DNA of 64,000 nt from Methanosarcina barkeri MS. GTDB lineage: Archaea; Halobacteriota; Methanosarcinia; Methanosarcinales; Methanosarcinaceae. Under the pieces are notes generated by a model. The model saw only the letters and a list, made by a program, of their open reading frames with translations. It was not told where the DNA came from and did not search any database. Location of the stretch: positions 3,831,168 through 3,895,167 of the forward strand of contig NZ_CP009528.1 in NCBI RefSeq assembly GCF_000970025.1, given 5' to 3'. Below are positions 56,072 to 63,674 of the stretch, piece after piece. Position numbers and translations under genes: made by a program. Position 1 is the first letter of the stretch, and every line of letters begins with the position of its first letter.

Positions 56072-56174
56072 ATGTAGGACTTACATTTGTAGGACTTGCA
56101 CTTGTAGGACTTGCACTTGTAGGACTTGCACCTGTAGGACTTGCACTTGTAGGACTTGCACTTGTAGGACTTAC
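56072..56174. repeat. 15-bp tandem repeat, seven copies
   Basis: TTGTAGGACTTGCAC repeats between two convergent genes. The unit differs from the IS701-type inverted-repeat word TAGGACTTACGCACTTG only by a missing AC, so it may derive from that end. Confidence 0.9.
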
Positions 56175-56179
56175 TAAAA

Positions 56180-57160
56180 TCAAGAATCATTTTCTGAGAA
56201 ATCCATTAACGTGAGCTGCTTCGAATGGGAAAGTTTTGACTGCATGGGTTTCATGTAGTCTCCAGACAAATGATATCTTTCCATAAGAGAGCTGAGCATT
56301 CCATAAAGTTTAGCCTTATAGGCTATATCAGCTCCTCCTTTTGCATACAATTTGCGGTAAGGACCCGCAAGTTCTGGAAAGTTAAGTTCAAGGAAACCGA
56401 AGAAATGCTTTCTGGTTTCGCCCCTGAGGTTAAGAACTCCAGGCAGAGCGTAATCCACACCACATTCGGTTGCAAGAGAGATAATTTGCTCGAGATTCTG
56501 ATGGTTGTCGGTAAGAAAAGGAAGAATTGGCATCATATGGATTCCAGTAATAGCAGATGTGTTTTTAAAAGCCTGCAGGACTGAAAACCGCTTTTTAGGT
56601 GAAGAAGCAAGGGGCTCCAGTAGGGCACTTAATTTTTCATCCACCGTCGTAACCGTAACTGCGATATTTACAGGTGTTAGCTCAGCAAGTTCTGAAATAA
56701 GGTCATAGTCTCTGAGGATAAGGTCCGATTTTGTAGATATAGTGACCGGATTTTGGTATTTAATCATCAGCGTCAGAACCTCGCGCATCAACCTGTAATT
56801 TGCTTCTACAGGCTGATAACTATCGCAGACCCCGCCTATATTAATTACTTCCTTTTTCCAGCTTCGTGCTGCAAGCTGCTTTTCAAGAGCTTCTGCAACA
56901 TTCGTTTTTACGTAAATTTTTTGAAAAAAAGCACATTTTTTACCCACTACAGAATAACAGCTCTCTTTCCCGAATCCTGGTTCTGCACAGACAAACTTTT
57001 TCTTTTCTTCCAGATAACTATGAGAATACATTGCATAACAGTAATTACAACCGTGTTCACAGCCCCTATAAATATTCAAATCCCAATGAAATGGGAGATT
57101 AATCCTGCTGGATTTATTTATCCGATTCAGAGCTTTTTTAACCTTGATTTCTTCGAACAT
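56180..57160 (-). CDS. SPL-family radical SAM enzyme
   Basis: The 326-residue protein has the cluster motif [14 protein letters not shown] (about 33-46) after a RGC-type lead, typical of the SPL (spore photoproduct lyase-like) radical SAM family, followed by segments such as [13 protein letters not shown] and [11 protein letters not shown]. Members of the Rv2578c-like branch are uncharacterised. No methyltransferase or peptide partner lies directly next to it on the same strand. It is convergent with the beta-helix gene. Confidence 0.88.
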
Positions 57161-57289
57161 CCCGGAATAAGATAGGGTTGAGAACTATAATAAACTTAAG
57201 AAAAAAGAACATAAAAAGAACTTTGTAGCAGGAAACATATTTCCAAAAAGTAGAAAAGGAGAATTATTCTCAGTAGTTATTCTCTAGAA

Positions 57290-58120
57290 TTATTCTCTGT
57301 AAACTCCATCTCCTGTAATAAGTTTTCCTTCCGCCTTTACCCAGCCTTCCTGAGGGCCTGAAAGTCGGATAGAAATCCTATCACTGTAACCATTAGATTG
57401 CCATCCATAAATCCACCATTCGTTTCGGCCATCCATCTGAACAAAAATCTGAACCTCGGCATCAGGAGACGCATCATAATGTGCATATACCAGGCTCTCA
57501 TAATCAAAATATTCGGGGTTGATATGTTCAGGTAGAGGAATTTCCGAGCCTTCTTCGGATTCTTGAAGATTATATTTAGGCAGGAGCACTGACTCATTAC
57601 CAACAGGGAATCTGGTATTAATCATATGGTCAGCCCTTATATTGGTCCCGAAATCAAATGAAGTCAAAACTGGGGTTTCTTCTGAGTATTCATTGGACTC
57701 CACTATTTGTTCTTCTTCCTGAACTTCATCTTCCATATTCTCGGTCCCAGGTTCAGGTTCGGGTACAGCTACAGGAAAGGAATGATAAACCGGTTTAATT
57801 TCGGCAGCTTCTATTTTGAACATTAGTCCATGCTCAGTATCCTCAAGGCTAAGATTCCAATTTGAAGGCTTATTATAATAATCACCATTCACCATTTCCA
57901 GTCCTACATCGGATTCATTCTCAAAAACAGGAACAGGCAAATATAAGGTTACATTTTGCAGAGTGCTGTTGCTTTCTATAATTATATCGTATTCATAATT
58001 ACTCATAAGACTGTCATTATACATTTTCTCGTTTCTATTTTCCAGATAGATTGAGCCCAGCACAAGCAAAAAAAGAATAAATAATACAACTCCTCCAAAA
58101 ATTGTTACCTTTCTGTTCAT
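57290..58120 (-). CDS. Anchored extracytoplasmic protein, unknown
   Basis: A 276-residue protein with an N-terminal anchor (about 7-26, VTIFGGVVLFILFLLVLGSI) and an outer part. The outer part has a strand-rich region (DIIIESNSTLQNVTLYLPVP), an acidic Glu-rich linker (about 122-150), and a C-terminal domain with NEWWIYGWQSNGYSD. I do not recognise the family. It lies between the SPL enzyme and the radical SAM/EgtD-like cluster, which is transcribed the other way. Confidence 0.75.
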   Translation of the reverse strand: MNRKVTIFGGVVLFILFLLVLGSIYLENRNEKMYNDSLMSNYEYDIIIESNSTLQNVTLYLPVPVFENESDVGLEMVNGDYYNKPSNWNLSLEDTEHGLMFKIEAAEIKPVYHSFPVAVPEPEPGTENMEDEVQEEEQIVESNEYSEETPVLTSFDFGTNIRADHMINTRFPVGNESVLLPKYNLQESEEGSEIPLPEHINPEYFDYESLVYAHYDASPDAEVQIFVQMDGRNEWWIYGWQSNGYSDRISIRLSGPQEGWVKAEGKLITGDGVYRE

Positions 58121-58360
58121 TGTCAGTCATTCTCCCCTAATGATTGAAAATAGATATGTGAGAGTGATAATTAAACCTTACTAAATTTAACAAGAAGAAT
58201 AATCATGAATTTATCACGCATTTGTCGCACTGTATGAATTAACTACAAAAAGAACCGAAGTAACCGGAATACACAAATTACTGACAACAAATTACTTTTT
58301 AAAAATTAGAAGATTAGAATCAAAAAAACACTTAGTTTCTTGTAATTTGATAAGGAACGT

Positions 58361-58372
58361 TAAATATATATT
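58361..58372 (+). promoter_or_regulatory. TATA-like box before the radical SAM cluster
   Basis: TAAATATATATT lies 6 to 17 bases before ATG 58378. At the usual spacing the transcript would start at or just inside the frame, so translation might be leaderless or the box might belong to a later start. There is no Shine-Dalgarno. Confidence 0.35.
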
Positions 58373-58377
58373 TTAAC

Positions 58378-59520
58378 ATGTGGGAGGAAGACCTAAAGAA
58401 TCTTGATACGTTAAGCTTGTTTTCACCACCTCCGCTACTGAAAGGGTACATGTACGGACCACAGGAAGCCCATAAGGCACGGAACTCAAACAGGCTTTTA
58501 GCCATACGCCTTGAAACAAACAAATCCTGCAATCTCCGCTGTCGCTACTGCTATGCACAGAGTGGTGAGGACTCGGCAAAAATAGCCGATTTTAATAATC
58601 TCAAGCGTATTATTTAGGAGGCAAAAGAACTCGGGATCAGGTCTGTGGTTGTAATTGGGGGAGGAGAGCCGACCCTATACCCGAGTTTCAGGGATTTAAT
58701 AGCTTATATTGATTCCCTGGGAATAATCCCGGTGATTTTTTCGAATACGGTTTTGATGACAGAAGAGCTTGCAGGGTTCCTGTACAAACACAACGCCTCA
58801 GTAATGGGAAAGTTAGATTCCCTTAAGCCTGAAGTTCAGGACTACCTCGCAGGAAGAGCAGGAGCCTCCGAAGATATTAGGAATGGGCTTCGGAATCTTC
58901 TCAAAGTAGGCTTTTCAAAACCTGCGGAATCTGGAGAACTCCGTATGGGAGTTTCTTTCGTCAGTAACAAAATGAATCTGGAAGAAATTGAGGAGATCTG
59001 GCATTTCTGCAGGCAAAACAATATTTTTCCCAATATGGAAATTCTAACACCTACAGGCAGGGCAAATGACGAACTTGAGGATAAGCTACTCACGGCTGAC
59101 GAGATAAAGGAATATAAATTAAAACTGCTGGAAATCGACCGGAAATATTATGGTTATGACTGGCTGCCTTACACACCGATTACTGCTAGTGGCTGCCTTC
59201 AGCACCTTTACAGCCTGTATATCAATATAGAAGGAAATATCCGGCCCTGTGCGCCTACAAAGCTGGACGAACATCCTGCGCTTAGAGTTGACGGGGAATA
59301 TCCCTACAATGTAAATAAAATGAGCCTTCGGGAAATTTATGATTCTAATCTTTTCAAATATGTCCGAAACATCGATAAAATGCTCGAGGGAAGGTGCAGG
59401 AACTGTGAACATAATGAAGAGTGCATAGGCTGCCGGGGGTATGCTTACAGCGTAGGAGTAAAACATGGCATCGACCCTCTTAAAGCCCTCAGGATGGAAT
59501 GCCAGCAGTGTTTCAAGTAA
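58378..59520 (+). CDS. Radical SAM/SPASM-like enzyme with in-frame UAG (probable pyrrolysine)
   Basis: The open frame of 380 codons is interrupted once, by TAG at 58615-58617 (codon 80). Before it the protein has the cluster motif CNLRCRYC (Cys51, 55 and 58) and a helix NNLKRII; right after it the same helix goes on as EAKELGIRSVVVIGGGEPT with the GGGEP motif of the barrel. A C-terminal cysteine-rich region (SGCLQHLY, RPCAPTK, GRCRNCEHNEECIGCRG, ECQQCF) resembles a SPASM domain for extra clusters. In Methanosarcina UAG is decoded as pyrrolysine, so the full protein is the best reading; a nonsense mutation is the alternative. The EgtD-like gene follows on the same strand. Confidence 0.8.
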
Positions 59521-59661
59521 ATGGCAGATTGGTAATTGAATAGAAAAAGAATGGCAATTGAATGGTAAAAAAATGGTAAAAGCAAAACTCAGGCAATAAA
59601 TAAATTAAAAGAAATAAATAAAGATATGTACTGTTGAATAATTTGAGGAGAAGGTGAGAAA

Positions 59662-60687
59662 TTGAACAGTACAGAAAGAGTGGAGTTTGGACAGGTTTTG
59701 GGAAATAAGGAAAAGATAGTCATTACCAGCAAGGAGGACATAGAAGGCAGACTTTGTCAATGCCTGAAAAACCATGAACTGCCTGATTACTTTCTATATA
59801 TGGGCACTGGAGGAGCAAAAAACTGGCTGAAACTTGATGGGGCTAAGACGTTTCCTGTAGCCAGGCAACTCAAAATCCTTATGGAAAAAAATCTGGACTC
59901 AATCGTAAGATTTATTCCGACAGGCATGAGTCTCGTAAGCGTGGGTGTGGGAAACGGAGAGAAGGAAAGAATTTTTCTTGAAGCACTAGTAAGAAAGAAT
60001 CTAGCTGAAAACCCTTCCTCAGAAAAAGTGTCGATACGCTATTACCCCATCGATATAAACAGTGAATTTGTAGATATCGCTCTTGAAAAGGTCGATAACC
60101 TGCCTGTTGAAAAGAAGGGAATAGTTGGTTTCATAGAGGATATGGCCACTCTTAAAGAAAACTGGCGTCTCCCGATTCTTTTCTGCATTTTAGGAAATAC
60201 CTTTTGCAATTACGAGCCAGAGTTCATTCTTCAGCTTGTCCATGAAAACCTTGAGCGGGGGGACCTTTTTTTCTTCGATGCCAACCTGCTACCTACTGAA
60301 GGCACAGAGGCACAATCTGTAAGGAAGTCCGTACTGGGCACATATGCCTCAAGAGAGAATGCCCTCTTCAATATGTATCCACTGCTTCAGTACGGAATGG
60401 CTCCTGAAGATTTCGATTTTGAACTCTTGCTTGCGCATGTAAATTCAAGGATAGGGGGAGTATACAGGACAAGGAAGAGTCTGTATATCCTGAAGGATAC
60501 CGAACTCAAAATCGGGACAGAAACCATAGGCTTAAGGGAAGGAGACATCATCCGTATGGGTTTTACATATAAATATACATATGACCAGATTACGGCTCTT
60601 CTGGAAATTTGCGGATTTGAGATCCTCAAGGCTTTCCTGAGTGAAAACCGGACAAATGTCATAATCCTTGCAAAAAACCGTATATGA
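59662..60687 (+). CDS. EgtD-like amino-acid N-methyltransferase family protein
   Basis: This 341-residue protein matches the Methyltransf_33 family, whose known member EgtD trimethylates histidine in ergothioneine synthesis. Visible features are the SAM site SVGVGNGEKERIFLEAL (about 93-109), YYPIDINSEFV (about 129-139), LFCILGNTFCNYEP, and the later FDANLL segment. Substrate specificity cannot be read from sequence. A TTG start at 59662 has AAGGTGAG eight bases upstream. It lies 141 bp after the radical SAM gene and 32 bp before the amidinotransferase-like gene, so the three probably form one transcription unit. Confidence 0.82.
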   Translation: MNSTERVEFGQVLGNKEKIVITSKEDIEGRLCQCLKNHELPDYFLYMGTGGAKNWLKLDGAKTFPVARQLKILMEKNLDSIVRFIPTGMSLVSVGVGNGEKERIFLEALVRKNLAENPSSEKVSIRYYPIDINSEFVDIALEKVDNLPVEKKGIVGFIEDMATLKENWRLPILFCILGNTFCNYEPEFILQLVHENLERGDLFFFDANLLPTEGTEAQSVRKSVLGTYASRENALFNMYPLLQYGMAPEDFDFELLLAHVNSRIGGVYRTRKSLYILKDTELKIGTETIGLREGDIIRMGFTYKYTYDQITALLEICGFEILKAFLSENRTNVIILAKNRI

Positions 60688-60719
60688 AGATGACACGAAT
60701 CAAAAGGTAGGTTCAGGGT

Positions 60720-61697
60720 ATGGGTTGCAGGATAAATGGACTTGGTAAAGGCGAAAAAGCAAGATCAGGCATCGATTACGGGTGTGAAGAATTTGGAAGG
60801 CTGAAAAGCGTATTGATGCATACACCTGGAGAAGAACTTTCTCTACTCAATGAATCGAATTATAAACACTGGCTATATGATAAGGTTCCTGAAATTTCAG
60901 GGTATATTAAAGAGCATAGAGACTATCAGGAGTTGCTGGAATCAAACGGGGTCAGAGTCTATGAACTTGAAGAGTATGTGGACGAAAACACAGGTCTAAT
61001 GAAGAAGATGCCAAATCTAACTTTTTTACATGATACCGCAGTTATCTCCGAAAAAGGGGCTATTCTCTCAAGAATGCGTCCGCCTGCCAGGGAAAAGGAA
61101 GAGGTTGTCGTAAAGGAAGCTCTGAATAATCTGGGAATTCCTATTCTCAGCGAATTCAATGGAGGAAAAGGGTTTTTCGAAGGCTGCCTCCTACTCTCAA
61201 AAGAAACAGTCTTTGTAGCTGATACGGAAAGACACACTTACCCATTTATAAGAGAATTTGTTTCAAACATTCTCAAAGAGTTCAGTGAAGTTATTTACGT
61301 CCGTGTTCCAAAAGCCAGGAGGTACATGCACCCTGATACTGTCTTCAACAGGATAAGGGAAAACCTTGCCCTTGCTTATCTACCTGCATTTGAGGAAAGC
61401 TGCCTGTTTACGGAAGATTCTAGAGAAAAAATTGATTTTAAAGCTTTCATGCGCGAGAAAGGAATGGAAATCATTTCTGTTTCGGACTCCGAGCAAAGTC
61501 GTCTGGCCTGTTCATTTGTTCCTCTAGAGAGTGGAACTATTTTTCACTACGATACCTCATTTGATCAGAAAACCAGGAAAGACCTTGAAAATGAAGGTAT
61601 TGAGATTATTTCTTTTCACCCGGATGCACTGCTTGCAGGAGGAGGGAGCCTGCGCTGCCATACTCTGAGGCTTTGCAGAAAGAAAATTAAGAATTAA
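60720..61697 (+). CDS. Arginine deiminase/amidinotransferase-fold enzyme
   Basis: The 325-residue protein has the pentein fold of arginine deiminases: the start RLKSVLMHTPGEEL, the PNLTFLHDTAVI segment (canonical FTRD), the histidine in YMHPDTVF and the nucleophilic cysteine in GGSLRCHTL (Cys313). The EGGD substrate loop is changed to FFEGCLLL, losing the aspartate that binds the guanidinium group. It may therefore act on a substrate other than arginine. It is the last gene of the radical SAM/EgtD-like cluster, so it could tailor a guanidino or amidino compound. Confidence 0.82.
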   Translation: MGCRINGLGKGEKARSGIDYGCEEFGRLKSVLMHTPGEELSLLNESNYKHWLYDKVPEISGYIKEHRDYQELLESNGVRVYELEEYVDENTGLMKKMPNLTFLHDTAVISEKGAILSRMRPPAREKEEVVVKEALNNLGIPILSEFNGGKGFFEGCLLLSKETVFVADTERHTYPFIREFVSNILKEFSEVIYVRVPKARRYMHPDTVFNRIRENLALAYLPAFEESCLFTEDSREKIDFKAFMREKGMEIISVSDSEQSRLACSFVPLESGTIFHYDTSFDQKTRKDLENEGIEIISFHPDALLAGGGSLRCHTLRLCRKKIKN

Positions 61698-61792
61698 TTA
61701 AAACCCAAAAAGAGCTGGATAAAGGATCAGAGAATAAGCCAAAAAAAGGCAGAAAAGGTAAGAAAGAACCAGAATGAAAAAAAAAGCCCATC

Positions 61793-62686
61793 TCAGTATA
61801 TAAAGTCAAGAATAATTGACACTGCGTAGATTATCAGAACCCCGTGATAAAAAGGCAGTATCTTCATTCCGGCATCCAGATTTTTTTCTTTCCACAGGTA
61901 AATGTTTGCCCCTGCAAGGAGCACAAAACCTGCAAGAAAACCATAAAGGGCTATCTCTCCAAGCTCCCGGAGAAAGAAAATAGCTGCAAGGAAATGCAGG
62001 ACCGTAAAACCTGTAATCCAGTACATTGTCCCTTTTTCACCGTAGAGTACGGCTATTGACTTCATGCCTCTTGCGTGATCGTTTTTCAGGTCTATAAAGT
62101 CATTCAATCCCAGATGAGCCATTGTCCAGGGATAGAAAAAAAACATGTAGAGCAACATGGTCATATCTGGATGCCCGTAGCAGAGATAGCCTGCCGCCGG
62201 AAAAAGCGTAAAATCCGTCCTGCCCAAAAGCTGTGCAATTGGATAGTTCTGAGTTCTCTTTTTTACCTGGTAAAAAGCCTCAATGCTATAAGAGTACAGC
62301 ATAACTGCAAACACGTATAAAGAGTTTGGATAAGGAAGTGTAAAAATCAAGGCTGAAATGACTACTACAAGCAGGATAAACAACGAGAAGGCACTTCTTG
62401 AAGAAATTTTTCCTGATGGGATGGGTCTTTCTTTAAAAGGCCTCCAGTACCTTGTAAGCGTGTTCTCTACATCAAGTCTATCTCTGTTCCTGTCCACATA
62501 ATCATTAAGTATAAAACCGGCTTCAAACCCGAGCAGGCCTATTAGAGCCACCTTAATAGTCAACGCCCAAGAAAAGCCACCATAATTTTCAAAAGCAAGC
62601 ACAAGCCCAGAGCAGGAAACCAGAGGCCAGGCAGGAAGAAAATGAGCACGTATAAGATCAAGATAAGCTTTCAGGGTTTCTGTCAT
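61793..62686 (-). CDS. UbiA-family prenyltransferase
   Basis: The 297-residue membrane protein has eight or nine hydrophobic segments and the two Asp-rich motifs of UbiA enzymes, NDYVDRNRD (about 61-69) and DFIDLKND (about 196-203), which bind Mg-diphosphate of a polyprenyl donor. It attaches an isoprenoid chain to an aromatic or other acceptor in the membrane; in this lineage possible roles include lipid, menaquinone-like or methanophenazine synthesis. It is convergent with the three-gene cluster, so a shared pathway is not shown. Confidence 0.88.
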   Translation of the reverse strand: MTETLKAYLDLIRAHFLPAWPLVSCSGLVLAFENYGGFSWALTIKVALIGLLGFEAGFILNDYVDRNRDRLDVENTLTRYWRPFKERPIPSGKISSRSAFSLFILLVVVISALIFTLPYPNSLYVFAVMLYSYSIEAFYQVKKRTQNYPIAQLLGRTDFTLFPAAGYLCYGHPDMTMLLYMFFFYPWTMAHLGLNDFIDLKNDHARGMKSIAVLYGEKGTMYWITGFTVLHFLAAIFFLRELGEIALYGFLAGFVLLAGANIYLWKEKNLDAGMKILPFYHGVLIIYAVSIILDFIY

Positions 62687-63290: not shown

Positions 63291-63674
63291 TTATGTATTG
63301 TTTTCATCCGCAGAGTCGTTGTCTTCAACTGTAACATTGTCAACTGCAGAGTCATTGTCTTCAACTGTCATATTGTCAGCTGCAGAGTCATTGTCTTCAA
63401 CTGTCATATTGTCAGCTGCAGAGTCGTTGTCTTCAACTGTCATATTGTCAGCTGCAGAGTCGTTGTCTTCAACTGTCATATTGTCAGCTGGAATGTCTGC
63501 AGCTACATCTTCGGTTTGAGTTCCATTTTCGTCTGCTACTGGAGCCTGGTCAGTCACTTCTTCTTGAGATCCATTTTCTGCTGTTGTGTCAGCATTCTTG
63601 TCAGAACAGCCGGCTGCAAAGACAACAGCACTAATGACAAGGAGCATTGCCATAATCTTTAACATTTTTTTCAT
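63291..63674 (-). CDS. Repeat lipoprotein with 12-residue units
   Basis: A 127-residue lipoprotein: signal peptide with the lipobox VFAAGC (Cys23), an acidic linker, then five copies of a 12-residue unit such as ADNMTVEDNDSA encoded by 36-bp DNA repeats. Each unit holds an N-x-T sequon (NMT, once NVT), so the outer part may be densely glycosylated. The acidic, flexible character suits a surface spacer. ATG 63674 opens the signal peptide. It stands alone. Confidence 0.88.
   Translation of the reverse strand: MKKMLKIMAMLLVISAVVFAAGCSDKNADTTAENGSQEEVTDQAPVADENGTQTEDVAADIPADNMTVEDNDSAADNMTVEDNDSAADNMTVEDNDSAADNMTVEDNDSAVDNVTVEDNDSADENNT

Follow-up and report, generated by a model that had tools for sequence, protein, structure and literature searches.

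A conserved cassette of radical SAM, EgtD-fold methyltransferase and pentein genes in Methanosarcina that probably tailors an amino-acid-derived molecule

The closest described counterparts of the three proteins considered here are the methyltransferase EgtD and its fungal relative EasF, arginine deiminase (ADI, or ArcA) and related penteins, and radical SAM/SPASM enzymes of the AhbD/NirJ, PqqE and W-oxidoreductase maturase types. An ADI is recognized by a catalytic Cys/His/Glu set, two guanidinium-binding Asp residues, an EGGD motif and a full length of ~410 aa, and a radical SAM/SPASM enzyme by a CxxxCxxC motif and the SPASM cysteines. In EgtD, Glu282 is a ligand of the imidazole. Asn166 of EgtD binds the alpha-amino group of the substrate, Tyr206, Ser284 and Tyr56 bind its carboxylate, and Thr213 contacts the imidazole through a water (PMC8593015). 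An engineered EgtD, M252V,E282A, binds tryptophan, according to the title of PDB entry 4pip.

All three kinds of enzyme are encoded side by side in Methanosarcina barkeri MS, within a stretch of 64,000 nucleotides that was analyzed as a whole and is called the window below (Table 1). The coordinates agree with the earlier note on this DNA, which had described three same-strand genes with gaps of 141 bp (between the radical SAM and the methyltransferase, or MT, genes) and 32 bp (between the MT and pentein genes), and the Pfam matches support its assignment of the products to the radical SAM/SPASM, EgtD-type and ADI-fold families. None of the three proteins reaches an NCBIfam equivalog cut-off, an Rfam scan of positions 57900-62000 gave no match, and no description of the trio was found in the full text of the open-licence literature. 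The trio can be regarded, with high confidence, as a tailoring cassette that has not been described before and whose genes are conserved and functionally coupled; it is compact, widely conserved and genetically accessible in model methanogens.

Table 1. Positions of the cassette and of nearby or related features (window coordinates unless another locus is named)
Feature	Locus	Coordinates	Strand	Remarks
Conserved element of 25 nt, upstream of trio	window	58329..58353	+	CACTTAGTTTCTT[GA][TC]AA[TC]TTGATAA
Radical SAM/SPASM gene	window	58378..59520	+	Pfam Radical_SAM 6.6e-20 and SPASM 7e-6; 380 aa with the TAG read through
In-frame TAG, codon 80 of radical SAM gene	window	58615..58617	+	probable pyrrolysine
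EgtD-fold methyltransferase (MT) gene	window	59662..60687	+	TTG start; Pfam Methyltransf_33 (EgtD) 9e-23
Pentein (arginine-deiminase fold) gene	window	60720..61697	+	Pfam ADI 1.3e-26; Cys313 as predicted nucleophile
Flanking gene	window	57290-58120		syntenic with trio in Methanosarcina
UbiA prenyltransferase gene	window	61793-62686		convergent to trio; syntenic with it in Methanosarcina
Tandem repeat, 15 bp	window	56073-56172		6.7 copies
Small putative lipoprotein gene	window	63291-63674		five 36-bp tandem repeats (ADNMTVEDNDSA)
Radical SAM gene	L060	5824-7011		head to tail with the next two
MT gene	L060	6990-7952
Pentein gene	L060	7965-8933
Intact MT gene	L097	5998-7029	-	partners deleted or fragmentary
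Rhodanese, canonical EgtD, SufS and SufE genes	L099	3697-7500		in a row

The probable role of the cassette is to make or modify a molecule derived from an amino acid, with arginine as the likeliest source. In the best-supported reading, to which a probability of roughly 45% can be given, the enzymes work on an amino acid in its free form, probably on arginine or one of its derivatives. Starting from the observed gene content, order, conservation, selection, distribution and retained or lost active-site residues, a substrate, an order of steps, a product and a mode of regulation can be proposed. The three genes would make up one horizontally transferable cassette that tailors L-arginine or an arginine derivative and whose transcription is controlled through the 25-nt element upstream. 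The MT would act early, on a common amino acid, methylating its alpha-amino group by EgtD chemistry without the EgtD site for the histidine side chain. The radical SAM/SPASM enzyme and the pentein would then elaborate the methylated product, the former by a radical C-H modification and the latter by a deiminase-like attack of Cys313 on a guanidine or amidine carbon, with release of ammonia. The end product might be an alpha-N-methylated, radical-modified and deiminated metabolite derived from arginine, which would serve as an osmolyte, cofactor or signal in a methanogen pathway common to planctomycetes, and in some Methanosarcina the MT by itself would yield a less elaborate N-methylated amino acid; this picture of the product is tentative and rather doubtful in its details. 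Peptide maturation, a variant of the histidine-thiol routes and catabolism are each less likely than action on a free amino acid.

The radical SAM protein is the best conserved member of the trio, with 62% identity between the window and L060, a Phycisphaerae (planctomycete) MAG, as compared to 57% for the pentein and 41% for the MT. Its cluster motif, C51xxxC55xxC58, is invariant down to the planctomycete homologue, as are eight C-terminal cysteines (273, 291, 340, 343, 349, 352, 375 and 378), predicted to be enough for two auxiliary [4Fe-4S] clusters. The motif and the eight-Cys SPASM region are shared with the AhbD/NirJ, PqqE and W-oxidoreductase maturase types, but the protein fits no NCBIfam equivalog; its best NCBIfam matches include peptide maturases and small-molecule enzymes, all far below cut-off. 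The nearest outside relatives are planctomycete proteins of 38-39% identity. The ~38% matches were rejected as cassette homologues, as they belong to unrelated clusters without an MT or a pentein.

The usual substrates of radical SAM/SPASM enzymes are peptides, which speaks against a free amino acid here. The target of the radical SAM enzyme and the pentein could instead be a ribosomal peptide or a protein of the host, modified perhaps at an arginine residue, with the MT methylating the N-terminus. The peptide maturases among the best matches of the radical SAM protein favor such a role, and pentein-fold peptidyl-arginine deiminases exist. However, the flanks and gaps of four divergent loci (the window, L057, L058 and L060) have no small ORF in common that could be a RiPP precursor, which would have to lie at a distance, and the gene packing in L060 leaves no space for a precursor ORF between the genes. 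Also, EgtD-fold enzymes of known function use free amino acids, and the pentein retains the residues with which an ADI holds the alpha-carboxylate. Peptide maturation is unlikely on these grounds, yet it fares better than the other alternatives.

The relation of the MT to EgtD was established by structure search. Searching PDB sequences with a profile of the MT yielded no match at E 0.01, but the AlphaFold model (pLDDT 82.8) superimposes on EgtD 4uy6 with a Z of 31.2 over 299 residues (Foldseek 8.7e-19) at 16% identity. The MT shares with EgtD and EasF (Methyltransf_33) the whole fold and the backbone-binding Asn, Tyr and hydroxyl positions: in an alignment with canonical EgtDs of related archaea, N183, Y228 and T302 fall on EgtD N166, Y206 and S284. 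It differs at the side-chain site, where G300 stands at E282 and N233 at T213, and Tyr56 probably corresponds to F64, a match set by hand where the alignment is off by one. Gly300 occurs in the trio MTs of the window, L058, L060, L032 and L055, while the canonical relatives have Glu. Because this glutamate is a glycine while the backbone residues are kept, the MT is probably not a histidine methyltransferase; it probably methylates the alpha-amino group of a different amino acid.

An anaerobic histidine thiol or betaine route, similar to those for ergothioneine or ovothiol and with the radical SAM enzyme in place of the sulfur-inserting one, would explain the EgtD fold along the whole length of the MT. 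It would not explain the loss of Glu282, which is Gly300 in all trio MTs, or the score of 53 bits against the NCBIfam EgtD equivalog TIGR03438 (cut-off 290.9; the EasF cut-off is missed as well), and it has no role for a pentein. Ergothioneine partners are also missing: no sulfoxide synthase, OvoA or rhodanese/desulfurase partner was found among the families encoded at 56180-62686 or among selected L060 neighbors, and the earlier note had already stated the absence of the first two here. What an operon of this kind looks like in a methanogen relative is illustrated by L099, from the Methanosarcinaceae relative G111, in which genes for rhodanese, a canonical EgtD (356.6 bits), SufS and SufE probably form an anaerobic ergothioneine operon. 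It shares with the trio an anaerobic archaeal host and an EgtD-family methyltransferase gene in a putative operon; unlike the trio, it has a canonical EgtD with rhodanese and cysteine desulfurase partners and lacks a radical SAM enzyme and a pentein. Such an arrangement is absent at the trio, and the histidine route is improbable.

The pocket of the pentein was predicted from sequence alignment, since its structure model is poor (pLDDT 56). Residues C313, H204, D206, D105 and E154 align with Cys406, His278, Asp280, Asp166 and Glu224 of ADI, and N99, R124 and R171 with the backbone-binding set Asn160, Arg185 and Arg243; the numbering and roles are those of the P. aeruginosa enzyme. All of these residues are invariant as far as L060. 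The set resembles that of ArcA, DDAH and related penteins, and the likeliest substrate would be an amino acid in free form that carries a guanidine or amidine group. The difference from ArcA lies in the EGGDxx loop after the catalytic Glu, which is shortened by two residues to EGC, in the length of 325 aa and in the score against NCBIfam arcA (105.9 bits, cut-off 489.1). The stretch absent from the pentein corresponds to about residues 114-168 of ADI 4e4j and lies between aligned blocks. The description of the guanidinium site as altered, given in the earlier note, holds for the loop but was overstated, as the Cys/His/Glu and both Asp residues are all present. Sharp predictions follow from the two altered active sites: the EgtD fold of the MT lacks the residue for histidine, and in the ADI core of the pentein the EGGD loop is shorter.

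No other ADI-family protein was found in the M. barkeri MS genome. The pentein also has weak DDAH matches. These would suit a role in catabolism or salvage, in which the pentein would act on (methylated) arginines to supply a methylotrophic methanogen with ammonia or methylamines; methylamines are substrates of Methanosarcina. Catabolism leaves the radical SAM enzyme and the MT unexplained, however, and the same trio is kept by a planctomycete; this role is about as improbable as the histidine route. A search of viral contigs gave no relatives of the pentein. Plasmid matches from Kozakia and Haladaptatus (27-29%) were rejected as cassette penteins; they are other ADI-family proteins that adjoin amino-acid or polyamine transport genes, with no MT or radical SAM gene annotated nearby.

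That the trio acts as one unit is supported by how its genes are distributed. Of 149 genomes sampled from the order, 21 have the radical SAM gene, 21 the pentein gene and 22 an MT ortholog, all within two genera; among 30 Methanosarcina genomes the counts were 21, 21 and 26. Every complete set consists of adjacent genes in one order, which is kept in Methanosarcina, a sister genus, the deeper Methanosarcinaceae MAGs L057 and L058, and L060; when GTDB genomes were scanned, additional Methanosarcinaceae MAGs and L060 proved to encode the pentein. In L060 the radical SAM and MT genes overlap and the MT-pentein gap is 12 bp. The flanks there are bacterial (an ECF sigma factor and TAT-signal Gfo/Idh oxidoreductases) and the cassette matches them in GC and GC3, so misbinning of an archaeal contig is not a sufficient explanation for L060. 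That the trio is merely a set of functionally unrelated neighbors, together by shared ancestry, is very improbable: the Methanosarcina flanks are syntenic too and the three genes can be lost separately, but the planctomycete has the same order without those flanks, and the radical SAM and pentein genes are nearly always both present or both missing.

This is good evidence that the trio is a transferable functional unit, with a single planctomycete MAG as its bacterial occurrence. The co-occurrence test proposed in the earlier note thus came out in favor of one undescribed pathway, with the same order in ~20 or more Methanosarcinaceae genomes and a planctomycete; the small amino-acid-derived or guanidino compound it had suggested would fit the active-site residues. 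The note makes no mention of the in-frame TAG, the upstream element or the separate retention of the MT, all described below. Short gaps, the planctomycete gene overlap and the single upstream element speak for the predicted co-transcription. The UbiA gene and the 57290-58120 gene were rejected as parts of the cassette, as both, along with the other Methanosarcina neighbors, are absent from L060. UbiA is present as a tandem duplicate, with a second copy of ~58-62% identity, in several Methanosarcina (L025-L028, L031 and L032).

All three genes are under strong purifying selection, with conservation far beyond chance; where it could be computed, dN/dS was 0.04-0.09 for the radical SAM gene, 0.08-0.22 for the MT and 0.08-0.11 for the pentein. 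Four genomes (G073, G800, G801 and G803, of which G801 and G803 are incomplete) have an intact MT without intact partners. In G800 and G803, radical SAM and pentein fragments adjoin the MT, and in G073 the MT adjoins UbiA at the expected site of the trio and is still constrained (dN/dS ~0.14-0.17). Loci with an intact MT and deleted or fragmentary partners are L097, L104, L105 and L106. The MT-only and partly decayed genomes indicate that the MT is valuable alone and that some members of the genus are losing the pathway, which suggests a stand-alone function for the MT where its partners are gone. Since the MT outlasts its partners in several genomes, the product of the MT is probably useful in itself and the MT is probably an early step. 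The opposite pattern is seen in G114, which keeps the radical SAM gene while the MT and pentein are broken, and this counts against the pathway reading. Natural genomes with the trio, the MT only or decayed genes are a ready comparison set for metabolomics.

The 25-nt element occurs once in the window, with 0 copies expected by chance, and precedes the trio with 0-4 mismatches in nearly every Methanosarcinaceae locus fetched, the deep ones included. Over about 40 loci its distance from the start codon varies, and its core columns are invariant within intergenic sequence that is otherwise unalignable. It has no match in Rfam. It was not found in L060 with up to 4 mismatches allowed, or in the MT-only loci L097, L105 and L106; L104 does have it, ahead of its decayed radical SAM gene. 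The element is probably a regulator-binding site of the cassette or, alternatively, may be a 5'-UTR element.

A single in-frame TAG, at codon 80, interrupts the radical SAM gene, which has a continuous reading frame only with readthrough of this codon. TAG also stands at this position in L023, L024/L042, L048 and L052, and G795 has one in-frame TAG as well; elsewhere the codon is CAG (L022/L025/L026/L045), TCN (most others), TTG (L054) or TTA (the planctomycete). The region after the TAG has a dN/dS of ~0.1 (0.019/0.183) between the window and L023, both of which carry it, and is therefore under purifying selection. With an in-frame TAG, a conserved downstream frame and PylS in the M. barkeri MS genome, the codon is probably read as pyrrolysine in these archaea. 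TAG-bearing lineages do not cluster in a FastTree tree, and the TAG probably arose more than once. A change from Ser TCG to Gln CAG needs two substitutions, for which TAG is one possible intermediate, and it may have served as a sense-codon bridge between the two.

Thg1 of M. acetivorans is a described case of pyrrolysine gained by neutral evolution (PMC2933860). As in that Methanosarcina enzyme, the amber codon here sits at a variable and apparently non-catalytic site, and a neutral, Thg1-like pyrrolysine would be the simplest reading; the difference, besides the enzyme, is that the TAG recurs at one codon in several lineages. In some strains this codon may leave the radical SAM gene split, or hidden, in the annotation. 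The MT genes of relatives have in-frame TAGs of their own, at codon 11 (L027, L029 and L041) or codon 24 (L048 and L052), in the N-terminal part that precedes the conserved domain.

Tandem repeats are found on both sides of the cassette in the window. The 36-bp repeats lie in the small putative lipoprotein, the length of which differs among relatives, and the 15-bp repeat separates a beta-helix protein gene from an Rv2578c-like radical SAM gene, the two genes converging on it.
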